Below are positions 24,684 through 47,397 of a stretch of DNA of 64,000 nt, piece after piece. Location: positions 1 to 64,000 of the forward strand of contig NZ_JADGEW010000019.1 of assembly GCF_016744155.1 (NCBI RefSeq), read 5' to 3'. Made by a program: the position numbers and the translations under genes. The DNA comes from Amphritea sp. (GTDB taxonomy: Bacteria; Pseudomonadota; Gammaproteobacteria; Pseudomonadales; Balneatricaceae). The notes under the pieces are model-generated. The model was not told the DNA's origin and did no database searches. It was given only the letters and a program-made list of their open reading frames with translations. Position 1 is the first letter of the stretch, and each line of letters begins with the position of its first letter.

Positions 24684-25265
24684 CTATTGATTCCGACGCC
24701 TTCTAAACATCACCAACGAACCAAATAGAGCTGATCCAAACAACCAAAAAGCAGCCGGTACAGGTACAACCGCAACAGATGCAAAATTCGTAACATGGCT
24801 AATCTTTGAGATGCTAACCTTTGAAGTGTTAAATCCCATCAAAGCCAAATTAATAACCGCCCAACTAGATGACTCAGCATTATCAAAAAGGAAATGTGTT
24901 GGACTGCCAGCTAACGAACTACCATTACCAGTCTTAACCAAATAGAATTCAACACTGTCGTCAATTCCCATAGCAAAAACATCAGTGCTCTTTGAGCCGC
25001 CCTCGTAGACATCAAGCCAAGACATATCACCAGCACTCAGTTTTCCATCAAAAGCAATCTCATCAACAAAAAAGCTCTGAACCCATGCCAGCTCAGTTTT
25101 TTCTCCGCTATTTTTAAGCTTAGCTGATGCATAAATAGCATCAACAGAGCCAACAGATGTACCATCAAAAAGCGATAGGGAAGCTGCACTGGCAGACTGC
25201 ACAGCGCCGACACTAATAACCGCTATTATTACCAGCGCCTTTAATGTCCGTTCAATACTTTTCAC
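24684..25265 (-). CDS. VPLPA-CTERM sorted surface protein (substrate 1)
   Basis: A predicted exported protein of 193 aa with a signal peptide (VIIAVISVGAVQSASAA), a Ser/Asp-rich mature region without a known enzymatic motif, and a C-terminal sorting signal: VPVPAAFWLFGSALFG, further hydrophobics and the basic end RRRRNQ. This is the tripartite VPLPA-CTERM form recognised by XrtD-type exosortases. The frame opens at 25394, but GTG at 25265 gives the normal signal peptide. A sigma-54 promoter is 70 bp upstream of this start, inside the longer frame, which supports the shorter form. Confidence 0.88.
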   Translation of the reverse strand: MKSIERTLKALVIIAVISVGAVQSASAASLSLFDGTSVGSVDAIYASAKLKNSGEKTELAWVQSFFVDEIAFDGKLSAGDMSWLDVYEGGSKSTDVFAMGIDDSVEFYLVKTGNGSSLAGSPTHFLFDNAESSSWAVINLALMGFNTSKVSISKISHVTNFASVAVVPVPAAFWLFGSALFGSLVMFRRRRNQ

Positions 25266-25334
25266 GATGTAAAATCCCACTCGATATGCACTCTCTTCAC
25301 ACAACCCTTGTAAAACAGCCTTATACGAAGGCAA

Positions 25335-25351
25335 GCAAAATACACACCAAT
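25335..25351 (-). promoter_or_regulatory. Sigma-54 (-24/-12) promoter of VPLPA-CTERM gene 1
   Basis: On the minus strand TTGGTGTGTATTTTGC: GG and GC separated by exactly 10 bp, with TTGC at -12. It lies about 70 bp upstream of the GTG start. A 16-bp palindrome TATCAA-AATA-TTGATA at 25396-25411 lies about 45 bp further upstream, where an activator could bind. Confidence 0.65.
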
Positions 25352-25444
25352 AATCACAAGCCATTGTTATAAATGGAATATTCTTCAACGCCACATATCA
25401 ATATTTTGATACTGTAAGAAAAACCGACAGCCGGCAACTAAATA

Positions 25445-28773: not shown

Positions 28774-30345
28774 TTATTGCGGCAAAAAATCAGGTAAGTA
28801 AATTGCCATATCTCTTATAAAGTTCTGTAACTTCATATCAGCTTTATCAAAGTCATCATTGTTAACCAATACATTTACCCGGATCAAAGCACCATCAGAA
28901 CGCTTGTCAAATACCGCGCTTGATATGAGCGAAGCTCGGGCAAGATATTCATCGGTATAACTCACACCTTTCTGATCAATCCAATAATATACTAATTGCG
29001 TGAATTCTCCTTTACGAATAACAACCCGATTAGCAGCTTTAGTTTCACCAGTCGCGCGATAATTAAACTCAACCACACTTTCATCAGCAACAACCCATCC
29101 CCCACCCGGTATACACACCTTCGGCGAGTGCAGTGCACTGCCATCTTTTTGTTGTTCGTAATACACCATATAAAGATTTACTTCTTCTTCAGAGCTACTA
29201 TCACGGTACGAACCCAGAAAGTAATCGTCAGCTCTTAAAATATCTAATACCTCCTGTTCCAAGTACGATAGATCTACATTGCTACTACCGATACGCATAG
29301 GAAAGGAGTTAAACTTTTCACGAGTAGGGATAATTATTTGTTCATTGACACTATAGTAATTAGCTAAACCACCGAGCACTACAACCGGAATAACAAAGAA
29401 AACCACCTTAATCATGGATATACAAAAACGAATAGGCGAATACGCATTGTTAGCAGAGTCATCACCAAAATCGAAAAGATCAAATATAGATTGTGATGAT
29501 TTAAATATCAGTTTATAAAGCCATACTTCAGCAATAAGGATTAAGAAGGCAGCCATAAACACAACCCAGCCTTCAAAATCATGCAAAAAGCCCTCTGCTG
29601 CGGCCACACCAAAACTCTTAACTAGCAAACCCGTCACAGCAATCCTAAGACTGTTCATAACGATGGTCACGGGAACAGTCGATACGATCAGAAAAGCTTT
29701 AAACCAGAGTGGAGCTCTTAAGAAATATGCCACGATCAAAGCAATACTTATCAGCGGATAAAGATAGCGAAGCCCGCTGCAGGCCTCAACAACCTGAAGC
29801 TTATAAGCCCCAAGGTCGATAATATTACCCTCTAGAAAAACAGGTATTCCCATAGCACGTATCATCCAGGTACCCATCTCAGATGAGATTAGCTGTAACC
29901 CTGCAGTCAATGAAGAGATCAAGAGATACGGCAAGGGAATTACGAGCACCAATAGAGCTAAAGGCACCAGAGCTATTCTAAACAGCGCCCAACCACCAAT
30001 AAAAAGAACATAACCGGTCAGCACAATAATAAAGGAATAATGTTTAACTGACTCGAGATCGGCTAGCACTGCTGAAACATATAGCGTTAAACCTAAAAAC
30101 GAGCAGATGACTCCTGATGTTGCCGACCGCAGAGGCAAACGACTAATCTCACCCCTTTTAGACCAAAGAATATAAGCACCTATAAAAGGCATAAACAGCC
30201 CATGCCCATACTCTTCACTATTCCACCATTCAAGAACCAAAGAATATAGGCTTTCTGAGAACAGAAGCAGTATTAATACGAGAAGAGATAACACCACTGG
30301 CAAACCAAATACACGTATACTACCTTCCTGGGTTTCAGAAGCCAT
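28774..30345 (-). CDS. xrtD: VPLPA-CTERM-specific exosortase XrtD, fused to EpsI domain
   Basis: Exosortases are membrane cysteine transpeptidase-like enzymes that cleave C-terminal sorting signals. In this 523-aa protein the N-terminal part (about 1-290) has eight or so helices and the triad in its usual motifs: Cys189 in EACSGLRYLYPL, Arg234 in MNSLRIAVTG and His255 in FLHDFEGW. The C-terminal part (about 310-523) is an EpsI/DUF3485 domain with HSPKVCIPGGGW. The fusion and the VPVPA-type substrates nearby indicate XrtD rather than XrtA; the subtype is inferred from these features. Confidence 0.9.
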   Translation of the reverse strand: MASETQEGSIRVFGLPVVLSLLVLILLLFSESLYSLVLEWWNSEEYGHGLFMPFIGAYILWSKRGEISRLPLRSATSGVICSFLGLTLYVSAVLADLESVKHYSFIIVLTGYVLFIGGWALFRIALVPLALLVLVIPLPYLLISSLTAGLQLISSEMGTWMIRAMGIPVFLEGNIIDLGAYKLQVVEACSGLRYLYPLISIALIVAYFLRAPLWFKAFLIVSTVPVTIVMNSLRIAVTGLLVKSFGVAAAEGFLHDFEGWVVFMAAFLILIAEVWLYKLIFKSSQSIFDLFDFGDDSANNAYSPIRFCISMIKVVFFVIPVVVLGGLANYYSVNEQIIIPTREKFNSFPMRIGSSNVDLSYLEQEVLDILRADDYFLGSYRDSSSEEEVNLYMVYYEQQKDGSALHSPKVCIPGGGWVVADESVVEFNYRATGETKAANRVVIRKGEFTQLVYYWIDQKGVSYTDEYLARASLISSAVFDKRSDGALIRVNVLVNNDDFDKADMKLQNFIRDMAIYLPDFLPQ

Positions 30346-31325: not shown

Positions 31326-32159
31326 CTAGGTTCTTGATGATTCATCCCGCTCCCAAATAGTATTTTTAGATTCTGAATAATAATATCGAGCACGAAGAAT
31401 CGTGAAACATTGCACAGACACATAAATAATTATCGATATAAGGTCAAAGGGATTCTTTTTCAAAAAATCAAAAAGATCTGAGATACCATTATTACTAACC
31501 TTTCTTAACATAGGAAACTTTCTAAGCAACTGCTTATTTCCATATCGAGAACGCGATTTAATCTTGATTAAGTCCCAAATACCAACCGGAGAAATACATT
31601 CAAATGAGACATCCTTCCTATGTAAGATATCCTGCTCAGAAAAAGTGTGTTTAACAAAAGCATCATCAGCAATAACATCAGGAAACTCAATAAAACTATT
31701 ACGAGCCTTTTCGGATAAAACAAAAAGACCACCTACGCGCCGATCATAATGAGGCATAGAGGTCCATACCTTGTTAAAAGACCTAACAAGATAACCTGAA
31801 CACGAGTCATTCAAAGACATAGATGGGGAAACAACCATCAAACTATCATCGGATTGAAAGCTAGAAGCAAGTTTAATAATGTCAGCACCACTAACCATTA
31901 AATCAGCATCAAGATAAACGCGAGGAAAATACGAAGCATGTCGATCAGCTTCATTCAGAGCATTTACTTTTGAAGGCTTAGATATTTCGAGCACCTCGAC
32001 ACCCGCCACACTTCTTGCTATAGAGGCCGTATTATCAGAGCACCCATTGCAAGCCACGATAACCTGCACACTTTGAGCAGCAATTCCTTCATATAAGTTT
32101 GACAAACAACGAGCAATGACTGACGCTTCATTATGTGCAGGAATAATTATTGATATCAT
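31326..32159 (-). CDS. GT2-family glycosyltransferase
   Basis: A 277-aa inverting glycosyltransferase: MISIIIPAHNEASVIARCL at the N-terminus, nucleotide-binding VYLDADLMV (DxD) near residue 88, and ADDAFVKHTF as acceptor-site residues. The C-terminus has one membrane-like segment (LISIIIYVSVQCFTI). Sugar specificity is not evident. It is the last gene before the divergent secreted protein, at the edge of the AT-rich block. Confidence 0.88.
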   Translation of the reverse strand: MISIIIPAHNEASVIARCLSNLYEGIAAQSVQVIVACNGCSDNTASIARSVAGVEVLEISKPSKVNALNEADRHASYFPRVYLDADLMVSGADIIKLASSFQSDDSLMVVSPSMSLNDSCSGYLVRSFNKVWTSMPHYDRRVGGLFVLSEKARNSFIEFPDVIADDAFVKHTFSEQDILHRKDVSFECISPVGIWDLIKIKSRSRYGNKQLLRKFPMLRKVSNNGISDLFDFLKKNPFDLISIIIYVSVQCFTILRARYYYSESKNTIWERDESSRT

Positions 32160-32208: not shown

Positions 32209-34665
32209 ATGAACAGCCTATATACAACAGGTAGCAGCTTAAAAGCCATTAGCTTAACAATGTTATTGACATATACACAATATGTATCAGCTGATTGTGA
32301 CTGTACGATAAGCCCTGATACTCCTTACTGCACAGGAAACGAAATAACAGTACGCATCGAGGCTAGTCCAGTCAACAATAAAGGCTCTGAAGACGCCATT
32401 TTTCGGTGGCGCTTTAGTTCAGAAACACCCGATGCTTCGCCCTACTGTGGGAAGTATGGAAATGGAGATTACTGGGTCGCACCAGCGGATGGAGATACAA
32501 GCATAACAATTACTGATATTAGTGGAAATGGCACAATAAGCGCAGATCGAAACCCATTTTTAGAAAGAACTGGACTATTAGGCGATAAAGACAAATACGG
32601 AAATTATTTTGTAGATGAAGACATAACCAAATCATTACCTATTACACTATCCGTGCAAGCAAGCATATTAGCTGCAAAAAAACGTAATGAGAGCTCGACT
32701 GGAAAATGCGGTACCCGTGGAATTGAAGGTATGTGTGTTGATGCATATAACCAAATAACAGTACTACCTAGAAAACCAGAAGGTAATACCAAATATCTAT
32801 TAAGACCTGAAATTTCAGGCGAATACAAATCAACTACAAACTTTCCCATCCAATACATATACGACTTACCTACATACAGCTTCGGAACGCCCGCAACGAA
32901 TAGCGAACTAGCGGAAATTGCAGCAAGGTGGCGACATAATACCGCTATATACACATTGATGAATTCAAGCGGACAATACTATTCAGAAGCAGGCCGAGCT
33001 TTTAGAGCTCATATTATCGCGGATGATTATGGTGCCGGATTAGCAGAACAATACAACACAGATATCATGCAGCTACTAAGCACCTCAAGCACCTATAGAG
33101 ATGACGATTATTATGTAGCGATATCTTCAATGCTAACATACGGACAAGATCTTTTTTATTCTAAATACAAAGGCAACAATGGTGCACGGCACTGGGGTTC
33201 AGGGGCTGGGCAACACCTTGGAAAGATCCTCCCAGCAGTCTTATACGCCACTTTGACTAGAAACCAAGAATTCCAGAATCTAATATTTACAACTGAAACA
33301 GCATTTGAAGGAAACACAGGACCTCATGAACTAAACCAAGTTAACAGAATTGGAAATGAATATCTCTGGGGAGATGAAGGAGGCGCAAATGCATACTGGG
33401 ACAACTTGCTCAGATCACAGTGTTATTCAGGTGCATTAGGAATATGTAACCCTATACATGGGAAAAAGACTCTTCGCGATCCTTATGGACTAATTGATGG
33501 TCCAGCAAACCTTCCAGGATCAAATTATATGCCCGTAGCCGCAGGCCCACAAAGATCAATGGCTGCAGTAATGGTTCTTATTCCTGAAACATGCAACGCA
33601 CTCAATATTGAACCTCTAATTAGTTATGTTGTTCGCCTTGAAGACTACGGAATATCAACAAACAATGATGTTTGCGCACCGCCCGATTATCGTGAAAACA
33701 TTGCCGAATGCGATGCTTATCGAGACACCGGTTGTAATTATTATAAAAAGACTTGGGGCCCGGATCCTACTAAAAGCAATATGTGTATAAAAGCCGAAGC
33801 GGATACTTATAGGTTTTCCCACATTAACGGCACAAAACTGAAATACTTCTATACTACCTCAGCAGTAGAAACACACTGGTCTTCTATTATCAGCAGAAAA
33901 TCAAAATGCTTAGGCAATATAAAAAAACAATTAAACGCGCCCACAGAAAGCACACTGCCTGTAGAAACACCACCTTCAACCGACACGCCATCGCCTGCTG
34001 AAACACTACCTGCAACTGAAGCTTCAATACCCACTACTAATGAAACAATACCTCTTTCAATCGATGGAACTGACAATGGGTCTGTGCAGGCTCACTCTGA
34101 ATCAACTCCCAACTCTCCAGCGCCTAGTATAAGTGGCGGCGGAGGCGGAGGCGGCGGAGGCGGCGGAAGCAACAGCGGAAGCAACAGCGGAAGCAACAGC
34201 GGAAGCAGCGGAAGCACCAGCAGCGACGGAAACGCCAGCAACAGTGGCAACCTGCCTAATTCTAATAGGACCGGCACTTCATCGACAATAAAACCGATAC
34301 CAGTTAGTATTCGAATGGAAGCCACCCCCGTTACCAATATAGAATTCTATGGAGATAGGCTCTTACAAAGAATGTCGAATACTATCAACTGGGATAAGCT
34401 CGAAAATGAAGTAAAGGCCAGCTACAAAGGCCCTGTGCCAATTACGACGATGCTTAAAGTTTACTGCATACAAAGCTGGTATAACATTAGCAACACTCAA
34501 CTTGTTACTCAGTTAAAAGACGACACATCAAAACGACTATTCTCAGGCATTAGGACTAATAGTGAAATACCAAGCATAGAGAGCCTTACAGACTTTAAAA
34601 TGATAATGAAGAGTAATAGTGAAGTGAAAGGAAATACAAATATAGATTGCATCAGCAGACAATAA
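32209..34665 (+). CDS. Secreted protein of unknown function with C-terminal IS5 DUF772-like domain
   Basis: Not recognised as a whole. The 818-aa protein has a signal peptide (LTMLLTYTQYVSA), then a Cys-containing N-terminal region (about 28-190), a helical, aromatic-rich central region (about 210-600) with GARHWGSGAGQHLGKILPAV and ANAYWDNLL that recalls alpha-toroid polysaccharide lyases or hydrolases, a Thr/Pro/Ser linker (about 605-640), a run of 11 Gly and SNSG repeats (about 643-665), and a C-terminal domain (709-818) with TMLKVYCIQSWYNIS, KRLFSG and EIPSIESLTDF that matches the N-terminal domain of IS5 InsH transposase. It is the only plus-strand gene in the AT-rich EPS block. A role in polymer trimming is inference only. 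Confidence 0.75.
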   Translation: MNSLYTTGSSLKAISLTMLLTYTQYVSADCDCTISPDTPYCTGNEITVRIEASPVNNKGSEDAIFRWRFSSETPDASPYCGKYGNGDYWVAPADGDTSITITDISGNGTISADRNPFLERTGLLGDKDKYGNYFVDEDITKSLPITLSVQASILAAKKRNESSTGKCGTRGIEGMCVDAYNQITVLPRKPEGNTKYLLRPEISGEYKSTTNFPIQYIYDLPTYSFGTPATNSELAEIAARWRHNTAIYTLMNSSGQYYSEAGRAFRAHIIADDYGAGLAEQYNTDIMQLLSTSSTYRDDDYYVAISSMLTYGQDLFYSKYKGNNGARHWGSGAGQHLGKILPAVLYATLTRNQEFQNLIFTTETAFEGNTGPHELNQVNRIGNEYLWGDEGGANAYWDNLLRSQCYSGALGICNPIHGKKTLRDPYGLIDGPANLPGSNYMPVAAGPQRSMAAVMVLIPETCNALNIEPLISYVVRLEDYGISTNNDVCAPPDYRENIAECDAYRDTGCNYYKKTWGPDPTKSNMCIKAEADTYRFSHINGTKLKYFYTTSAVETHWSSIISRKSKCLGNIKKQLNAPTESTLPVETPPSTDTPSPAETLPATEASIPTTNETIPLSIDGTDNGSVQAHSESTPNSPAPSISGGGGGGGGGGGSNSGSNSGSNSGSSGSTSSDGNASNSGNLPNSNRTGTSSTIKPIPVSIRMEATPVTNIEFYGDRLLQRMSNTINWDKLENEVKASYKGPVPITTMLKVYCIQSWYNISNTQLVTQLKDDTSKRLFSGIRTNSEIPSIESLTDFKMIMKSNSEVKGNTNIDCISRQ
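34135..34203 (+). repeat. Coding Gly tract and 12-bp tandem repeats
   Basis: GGC/GGA codons (11 Gly) from 34135 to 34167, followed by three copies of AGCAACAGCGGA (34168-34203) and partial units. All units are multiples of three, so length change would alter only the linker. Confidence 0.85.
34333..34662 (+). other. Domain: transposase InsH N-terminal (DUF772)-like
   Basis: These 110 codons end the secreted 818-aa protein. Segment by segment they resemble InsH: DKLENEVKASY / MVEVIEPFY, TMLKVYCIQSWYNIS / TMLRIHCMQHWYNLS, TSKRLFSGI / ASMRLFARL, and EIPSIESLTDFKMIM / ALPDRTTIMNFRHLL. The DDE nuclease part is absent. Comparison made from memory of the IS5 InsH protein. Confidence 0.7.
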
Positions 34666-34763: not shown

Positions 34764-35978
34764 TCAGCGCCCAATTCTATCTAATAACAACTCAGCAAAC
34801 TGCCCAACTTTATTCGGCCAGAGATAATTATCAGTACAAAAAGATAGTGAGTTACTTTGATACTCTATCAACATCTTTCTATTAGAATCTAAACTCATAA
34901 TTGCTTTCGCTATATCACGAGGAAATTGAGAAGGGTTGGTAACCTGCAATTTTAAACCAATATCATCGTTGATTATTGAACCAGGACCACCCAAATCACA
35001 CACGATCTGTGGCAAGCCAAATGACATCGCTTCAATTACAACGCCTCCTGTAGGTTCTCGAAAACTAGGAAAAACCATAAGATCAGAGGATTTATAGTAG
35101 CCATCAACTTCATCTCTATTGAGCTTTCCATGAAAAACTATGTTCGAGAAATTATTATCTTTAGCTTCCTGAATACAGTTTTCTAGATCATCACCGGAAC
35201 CAATAACCTGTAAAGTAAATTTTGACTGATCTAAATATTTAAAAGATCTGATAAGGTCACGAAGACCTTTCGATCGTACAACCCGACCAACATAAAGTAG
35301 TTTTAATTGAGGCGAGTCAAAGCGTCTCTCTGCCGGAGTAACAACATCAACACCGTGCTCGTTGATCACAGTGATATCATTAGATCTGTCGAAACGCTCA
35401 TTGATGATTGTTTCAACATAGGGGGCTGCAGCCAAAATAAAATCAGCTCCGTTATATGACTTCTTAAGATATGGAGCATATCGCCCAAATAAATCGTCAA
35501 AATTTCTAAACTTTGTATAAAAGGGGACACCGCCCATTTCGGTCTTGAAAGAATCGATATTTTTCAATCCACCAGCCACAGGCCCAATTGAATATTTTAA
35601 ATCTAAGCCCACTGCTGGACAAGGAAAGCGCATAGCAAAGGGATTAAACTGATGAACCCAATCACAATTCACATCACCAGTAACGACATTATCTATTAAC
35701 CACTTTCTACAATCCTTAAAAAAAGAAACATACCAAGGCTTCATCATACTATTAAGCCTCTCGAAACCTGAAAACATCCCCTTATCTTCAAAGCGAATAA
35801 TCTTTATTGGCAAATCATTATCAGCAATATGATGCTTTGTTTTCAAATCTAGAGTTAATAGAGTAATGTCAAAAGTTTTAGATAGCACTTCAATCCATTT
35901 ATATGCTAAAAAGACCTCACCCACATCTTCTTTACATGCACCTGGAGCAATAACAATTAAACTTTTCTTTTTATGCAT
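34764..35978 (-). CDS. GT4-family glycosyltransferase
   Basis: This 404-aa retaining glycosyltransferase has a GT-B fold: N-terminal acceptor domain, then donor-domain motifs LLYVGRVVRSKGLRDLI, VIGSGDDL and FREPTGGVVIEAMSFGLPQI (the E-x7-E signature). It is separated by one base from the GT2 gene upstream. Donor sugar unknown. Confidence 0.9.
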   Translation of the reverse strand: MHKKKSLIVIAPGACKEDVGEVFLAYKWIEVLSKTFDITLLTLDLKTKHHIADNDLPIKIIRFEDKGMFSGFERLNSMMKPWYVSFFKDCRKWLIDNVVTGDVNCDWVHQFNPFAMRFPCPAVGLDLKYSIGPVAGGLKNIDSFKTEMGGVPFYTKFRNFDDLFGRYAPYLKKSYNGADFILAAAPYVETIINERFDRSNDITVINEHGVDVVTPAERRFDSPQLKLLYVGRVVRSKGLRDLIRSFKYLDQSKFTLQVIGSGDDLENCIQEAKDNNFSNIVFHGKLNRDEVDGYYKSSDLMVFPSFREPTGGVVIEAMSFGLPQIVCDLGGPGSIINDDIGLKLQVTNPSQFPRDIAKAIMSLDSNRKMLIEYQSNSLSFCTDNYLWPNKVGQFAELLLDRIGR

Positions 35979-46899: not shown

Positions 46900-47397
46900 T
46901 TAAGAAACTTTACGACGAGCTGAGAATCCTGCAAAGCCCAACAGTGCAGAGCCGAACAACAAAGCAGCAGCAGGCACTGGTACAGCTGAAACAGTAGCAG
47001 TATAACCACCATTTTCAGTTGAATTAAGAACTACACTGTAAGTACCCGCGATAAGGCCACGCAACACTGTGCTTGCTGGGCTATCAGAAGTTGGCCCTAC
47101 TGTAGCAACCAAGTTATTCAATGCATCGAAAATCGTTGCAGTAAATACAGTAGCAACAACTGGCACAACGCTACCAGCAGCATCAGCATTATCTGGATTG
47201 AAAGAGAAGTACCAAGTAGTAGCGGTAGTATCTTCTTCCAGCTCTACCAGTATAGTTGAAGGCTGACCTGCAGTTAAACTGCCGTAAGCTGAACCATATT
47301 CAGTAGATGCAATAGATATATCCACTACAGCAGCTGACGCATTAAAACAAGCCGCTACTAGCAGCATTCCCAAAGCTATTCTTAATTTCGACAGCAT
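46900..47397 (-). CDS. VPLPA-CTERM sorted surface protein (substrate 2)
   Basis: A 165-aa exported protein: signal peptide (LGMLLVAACFNASAA), a Thr/Val/Ala-rich beta-type mature region of about 115 residues, and a C-terminal sorting signal VPVPAAALLFGSALLGFAG followed by basic ARRKVS. Its small size and location beside export genes suggest an abundant matrix or polymer-associated protein. Own sigma-54 promoter upstream and own terminator, so expression is independent of the EPS operon. Confidence 0.9.
   Translation of the reverse strand: MLSKLRIALGMLLVAACFNASAAVVDISIASTEYGSAYGSLTAGQPSTILVELEEDTTATTWYFSFNPDNADAAGSVVPVVATVFTATIFDALNNLVATVGPTSDSPASTVLRGLIAGTYSVVLNSTENGGYTATVSAVPVPAAALLFGSALLGFAGFSARRKVS

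Follow-up and report, generated by a model that had tools for sequence, protein, structure and literature searches.

Why a protein with a signal peptide should end in part of a transposase is the question raised by one gene of the DNA analysed here, a stretch of 64,000 nucleotides from Amphritea sp. (contig NZ_JADGEW010000019.1, positions 1 to 64,000; hereafter the window). The initial annotation had described an ORF whose 818-residue product would be secreted and would terminate in the N-terminal domain of an IS5 transposase, a combination that it regarded as unexpected. The present analysis supports both the ORF with its transposase-like end and the view that a signal-peptide protein is an odd place for a domain of this kind.

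Organization of the gene and of its product

The features of the gene and of the adjacent genes are collected in Table 1. The N-terminus of the protein shows a hydropathy peak of 1.57 at residues 11-21, and the presence of a putative signal peptide suggests that the protein is exported. The linker between body and tail (residues 575-696) is rich in Thr and Pro and then in Gly, Ser and Asn, and its second part includes a 12-bp tandem array (34163-34207); the layout of a separate module behind a Thr/Pro and Gly/Ser linker had been described correctly. No VPLPA or PEP-CTERM model matched the protein among the NCBIfam hits at E ≤ 10, and the highest 19-residue hydropathy past residue 560, where a C-terminal transmembrane helix was sought, was 0.58. 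The protein thus appears to be devoid of the XrtD/VPLPA-CTERM sorting end, that is, of motif, transmembrane helix and basic end.

Table 1. Positions, in the window, of the parts of the ORF and of neighbouring genes.
Feature	Position	Strand	Evidence or remark
ORF, 818 aa	32209..34665	+	Within minus-strand exopolysaccharide locus
Putative signal peptide, residues 1-28, putative cleavage VSA/DC	32209..32292	+	Hydropathy, and sequence by eye
Body, residues 29-574, unannotated family	32293..33930	+	Relatives in exopolysaccharide clusters and viral contigs
Thr/Pro-rich linker	33931..34134	+	GC by codon position 0.53/0.63/0.28
Gly/Ser/Asn-rich linker with 12-bp tandem array	34135..34296	+	Sequence
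Tail, IS5-transposase-derived, residues 698-818	34300..34662	+	Profile matches, alignments to transposases
PF05598 (DUF772) match, residues 742-797	34432..34599	+	Pfam profile
GT2 glycosyltransferase, divergent	31326..32159	-	49 bases between its start codon and that of the ORF
GT4 glycosyltransferase, convergent	34764..35978	-	GT4 homologue also near the body orthologue in L149 and L150
Exosortase XrtD (VPLPA-CTERM specific)	28774..30345	-	TIGR04152, 573 bits (cut-off 400)

The tail derives from an IS5-group transposase

The DUF772 profile (PF05598, gathering cut-off 23.1 bits) matched the tail alone with 39.1 bits (E = 7.5e-10) and the whole protein with 34.9 bits (E = 1.6e-8), which bears out the origin proposed for this region. 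The tail was also matched by the transposase family PHROG 3598 (E = 1.3e-12) and by NCBIfam IS5_4 (E = 1.5e-8; 34.3 bits, far under the equivalog cut-off of 140). On the basis of these E-values a chance match is unlikely. In alignments with IS5-group transposases from related genomes, the tail is collinear with their N-terminal ~115 residues, to about residue 804, with 27-32% identity over 101 columns. The gaps preserve the reading frame, and stretches that are nearly invariant among the transposases are gone from the tail. The two sequence blocks quoted in the initial annotation are found as written in the tail and in IS5 transposases, and they align. Taken together, profile matches and alignments clearly indicate that the ancestor of the tail was the DUF772 region at the N-terminus of an IS5-group transposase.

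The local matches between the tail and transposases of 144 related genomes mostly had 25-38% identity, the best being 36% over at least 80 residues and 38% over shorter stretches; in plasmid records, identity did not exceed 31.5% (best 20 of 5000). An exact-peptide scan of genome contigs, which detects close relatives only, gave none for the tail. DUF772 itself was present in 72 of the 116 genomes of the family, the longest open frame being 552 aa among the matches listed, so that further DUF772 fusions may exist beyond these. As previously claimed, the DDE core is missing: no such core was found among the Pfam and NCBIfam hits or in the forward frames downstream, the frame of the tail ends at 34665, and between 34560 and 34790 both remaining forward frames contain many stops.

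Some details depend on the alignment. The transposase stretch KRRQTRKEK faces a 7-residue gap of the tail in one alignment and a substitution in another, and the match of Met703 to the transposase start is tentative. The basic stretch TRKEKF of the transposases is not kept. We rejected the loss of charge as a proof of lost DNA binding, since Lys and Arg are only modestly fewer (12 in 101 residues of the tail, as compared to 15-20 in 115 residues of 24 transposases). Neither profile gave a match to an IS end upstream of the tail. The segment 34236-34300, which by eye might have been taken as an IS5 inverted repeat, was discarded, given that 261 (mean score) and 467 (best score) of 1500 GC-matched 80-mers of the window aligned equally well; an end worn beyond recognition is still compatible with this comparison.

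Structure prediction gave a helical tail with a mean pLDDT of 67.6 and block means of 78-85 over model residues 31-80, which suggests that the tail may be a tethered folded module. A fold search with this model retrieved no solved structure at E ≤ 0.001.

The body belongs to a family common to exopolysaccharide clusters and viral contigs

The searches gave nine relatives of the body, of which three are bacterial, five lie in viral contigs and one, L169, is distant and also from a viral contig. The bacterial orthologues (L144, L145 and L146, 35-45% identity) belong to three genomes, G705, G647 and G561, out of 390 drawn from the order; within 15 genomes of the family of G705, the body was present in two, both already among these three. 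A first scan of viral contigs with the body alone gave no relative; scans with the orthologues as queries gave L161, L162 and L163, and a second round gave L166, L168 and L169, the last related to the body with E = 6.8e-18 in a profile comparison (L164, L165 and L167 are repeats of earlier contigs). No relative was detected in 144 related genomes, 369 genomes of the class, 116 of the family and 398 of the phylum (sets that overlap one another), in plasmids and phages, or in a scan of genome contigs with the whole protein; searching plasmid and phage records with the relatives of the body as queries also gave none. Weak hits (E ≤ 1) in 13 family genomes besides its own were rejected after a comparison of their loci: among those read out, L038, L041 and L042 proved to be RpoB, and no other hit looked better than chance. 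Hits at E = 0.008, 0.009 and 0.004 were likewise set aside as chance, and only that at E = 0.008 entered the locus comparison.

The eight close relatives terminate within about 45 residues of the end of the body, and Pfam scans found DUF772 in none of the nine (0/9). Therefore, linker and tail, about 245 residues, have been added to a native protein that is complete without them, and this addition is seen in this genome only. The earlier suggestion that an IS insertion had replaced the natural C-terminus does not hold as worded: the native C-terminus is present, and the extra residues follow it.

Neither the body nor its relatives gave a meaningful match in Pfam or PDB, catalytic families included, apart from a borderline beta-helix-like region of L169 (PF13229, E = 9.8e-6; 25.7 bits as compared to a cut-off of 25.9), and the structure predicted for the body from the single sequence had a mean pLDDT of 32. 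L169 also ends differently, with an Ig-like match below the cut-off. Its ORF (L169:4534-7722, on a 121-kb viral contig), which joins the distant body copy to the borderline beta-helix N-terminal part and the Ig-like end, is tailspike-like. As a separate observation, the 755-residue protein of L168 (L168:5929-8193) carries an additional stretch in the middle of the conserved region of the family.

In L161, L162 and L163, genes for tail fibre, terminase, portal and head proteins are found close to the body copies. In two of the three bacterial cases the orthologue is located in an exopolysaccharide cluster with the same kinds of genes as the window: the regions L149 and L150, which surround the G705 and G647 orthologues, contain homologues of the Wzy, GT2b, GT4, acetyltransferase and chain-length proteins of the window, among others. 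L151, the 12.9-kb contig end around the third orthologue, showed no exopolysaccharide cluster. The body would thus represent an unannotated family common to exopolysaccharide clusters and viral contigs. The cluster context and the viral copies near virion genes fit a body directed to polysaccharides, a role suggested by genomic context, and the phage copies are candidates for a polysaccharide-directed phage protein.

The gene lies in an exosortase XrtD locus

From 24684 to 46640, all gene-sized ORFs other than the one under study are on the minus strand, and the other plus-strand ORFs listed there (113, 138 and 142 aa) sit inside minus-strand ORFs. Like XrtD, the sugar transferase WcaJ passes its NCBIfam cut-off, and the PEP-CTERM ATPase, PrsT and the chain-length proteins gave NCBIfam matches below the cut-offs. 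Judging from these profile matches, the minus-strand genes around the ORF are an exosortase XrtD exopolysaccharide locus. Exosortase/PEP-CTERM exopolysaccharide loci are a known system (PMC1569441). Our case is similar in that the gene lies inside such a locus, with two orthologues in clusters of the same gene kinds, and it differs from the sorted proteins of these loci in that the C-terminus is a transposase domain in place of a VPLPA or PEP-CTERM tail.

Relatives of the flanking GT2 (E ≤ 1e-20) were found in 3 others of the 116 family genomes; for the flanking GT4, the same genomes gave no relative at E ≤ 1e-50. G088, which has the best GT2 match, contains much of the XrtD locus in the same order, and there GT2 adjoins GT2b (L140:3137-4946). 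Neither the gene under study nor GT4 lies between them, and this arrangement represents the empty counterpart of these two genes in the window; two ORFs further on in the G088 locus match no gene of the window. We also noted two possible VPLPA-CTERM substrate genes, one at each end of the XrtD locus (24684-25394, with a VPLPA-CTERM match below the cut-off, and 46900-47397), and one protein of L140 matches parts of both.

Decay, codon usage and origin of the tail

Neutral decay of IS5-group transposases was simulated with models that include substitutions only and assume one base make-up. The tail was scored on a profile of 24 transposases over 101 columns, from which seven frames were left out (L004, L008 and L027 before alignment, and another four, out of 28 aligned, because their columns were incomplete). 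It reached 71.5 bits, a score attained by 0 of 3000 decays (mean 32.4, maximum 66.0) carried to its best identity, 31.7%; only 50 of the 3000 were still free of stops. In separate runs to 35% identity, 13, 34 and 14 of 2000 were stop-free. The initial annotation had weighed domestication against insertion debris, and had taken a tail unique to this strain as the mark of debris. The tail is indeed confined to this genome (0/9 relatives), which by that measure speaks for debris; however, simple decay fits the tail poorly.

The codon evidence is mixed. When scored by the overall codon frequencies of 16 genes nearby, the frame of the tail was the best of six and comparable to the body (-4.088, as compared to -4.07 to -4.12 for the body), in a test that is not strict, given that another frame scored better for body2, one of the five pieces of the body, and for the two parts of the linker. 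The synonymous codon score of the tail (-0.014) was below that of the body (0.031) and of the listed genes of the locus from 24684 to 46640. Its GC1 minus GC3 was low for the locus (equally low in 37 of 1412 in-frame windows) and its letter make-up was deviant, both of which fit relaxed selection. In a tree of the tail, 24 of the 28 aligned transposases and 8 others, the branch of the tail was 7.25 long as compared to a median of 0.056. In the best tree the tail fell within the IS5 group, but this placement was not firmly supported; trees with the tail outside this group were not rejected (p-AU 0.080), nor were those with it outside a narrower group (0.186), for groups chosen after the tree was seen. 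Only one tailed copy is known, in one genome.

Three explanations compete with the reading preferred below, a fused domain kept as a folded module. The main one is that a piece of a transposase came to lie behind the gene, that the frame ran into it, and that the resulting tail has been tolerated without a function while slowly drifting. The restriction of the tail to this genome, its low synonymous codon score, its low GC1 minus GC3 and deviant make-up, its very long branch and the loss of near-invariant transposase stretches all agree with such a passive event. On the other hand, the decay results, including the small number of stop-free outcomes at either identity, the gaps that keep the frame, the long linker between body and tail and the lack of a recognisable IS end argue against it, and we consider it possible, if rather doubtful.

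The tail might instead come from an already divergent, unsampled lineage of IS5 type, in which it was constrained as a transposase before being captured recently. The constraint detected against neutral decay cannot be dated, and it may predate the capture, because the tree leaves the placement of the tail open; the p-AU of 0.080 for a tail outside the IS5 group points in the same direction. This explanation is, however, unlikely, as the best tree, although not firmly supported, has the tail inside the group, and neither the related genomes, nor the plasmid records, nor the exact-peptide scan, within its reach of close relatives, provided a closer transposase than those described above. To the proposal that the similarity is due to convergence, or to a chance match between helical sequences, we give hardly any credence. 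In its favour, identity is only 27-32% over the 101 aligned columns, but the curated DUF772 cut-off is passed, two further libraries (NCBIfam and PHROG) indicate transposases, and tail and transposases can be aligned collinearly from the N-terminus to about residue 804.

Discussion

The reading that we prefer is that the gene was probably fused in frame with the reading frame of a transposase, the nuclease part of which was then lost. The native body is retained and has gained at its C-terminus the Thr/Pro and Gly/Ser linker and then the DUF772 domain. In the putatively exported protein, the body would act on, or bind, the polysaccharide made by the locus, and the tail would, most likely by self-association, cluster body domains in the matrix. 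Whether the fused domain has been kept as a folded module in this exported-type protein of an XrtD locus, most likely for self-association, strikes us as evenly balanced. More tentatively, the N-terminal domain of a transposase may have been recruited by this bacterial protein of an exopolysaccharide locus to serve for self-association outside the cell, which we hold to be possible rather than probable.

N-terminal domains of IS5 transposases bind DNA or multimerise, and the search for solved relatives of the tail gave none. Binding of extracellular DNA, which the initial annotation had also proposed, appears less likely than self-association because the basic stretch TRKEKF is not kept. With respect to IS5-group transposases, which combine PF05598 with a DDE core, the tail resembles the N-terminal ~115 residues but differs in having no DDE core, recognisable IS end or basic stretches, and in sitting behind a signal-peptide protein.

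Host-transposase fusion genes are known in eukaryotes, an example being F-box genes that carry a Tc1/Mariner HTH (PMC12062965). The present gene is similar in carrying a transposase domain in frame on a host protein, without the nuclease; unlike those genes it is bacterial, encodes a signal peptide, uses an IS5/DUF772 domain and occurs in one genome only. We noticed no bacterial exported fusion with a transposase domain in the literature listings and abstract openings covered.

To our knowledge, the known cases of transposase domestication are mainly DNA-binding proteins that act within cells, and this picture would become wider with a transposase fold in use outside the cell. Independently of this, the body family is a candidate for the recognition or cleavage of polysaccharides. 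If the extracellular reading is true, the gene would exemplify a host-transposase fusion with a role outside the cell, built on a body family that is also carried by phages.
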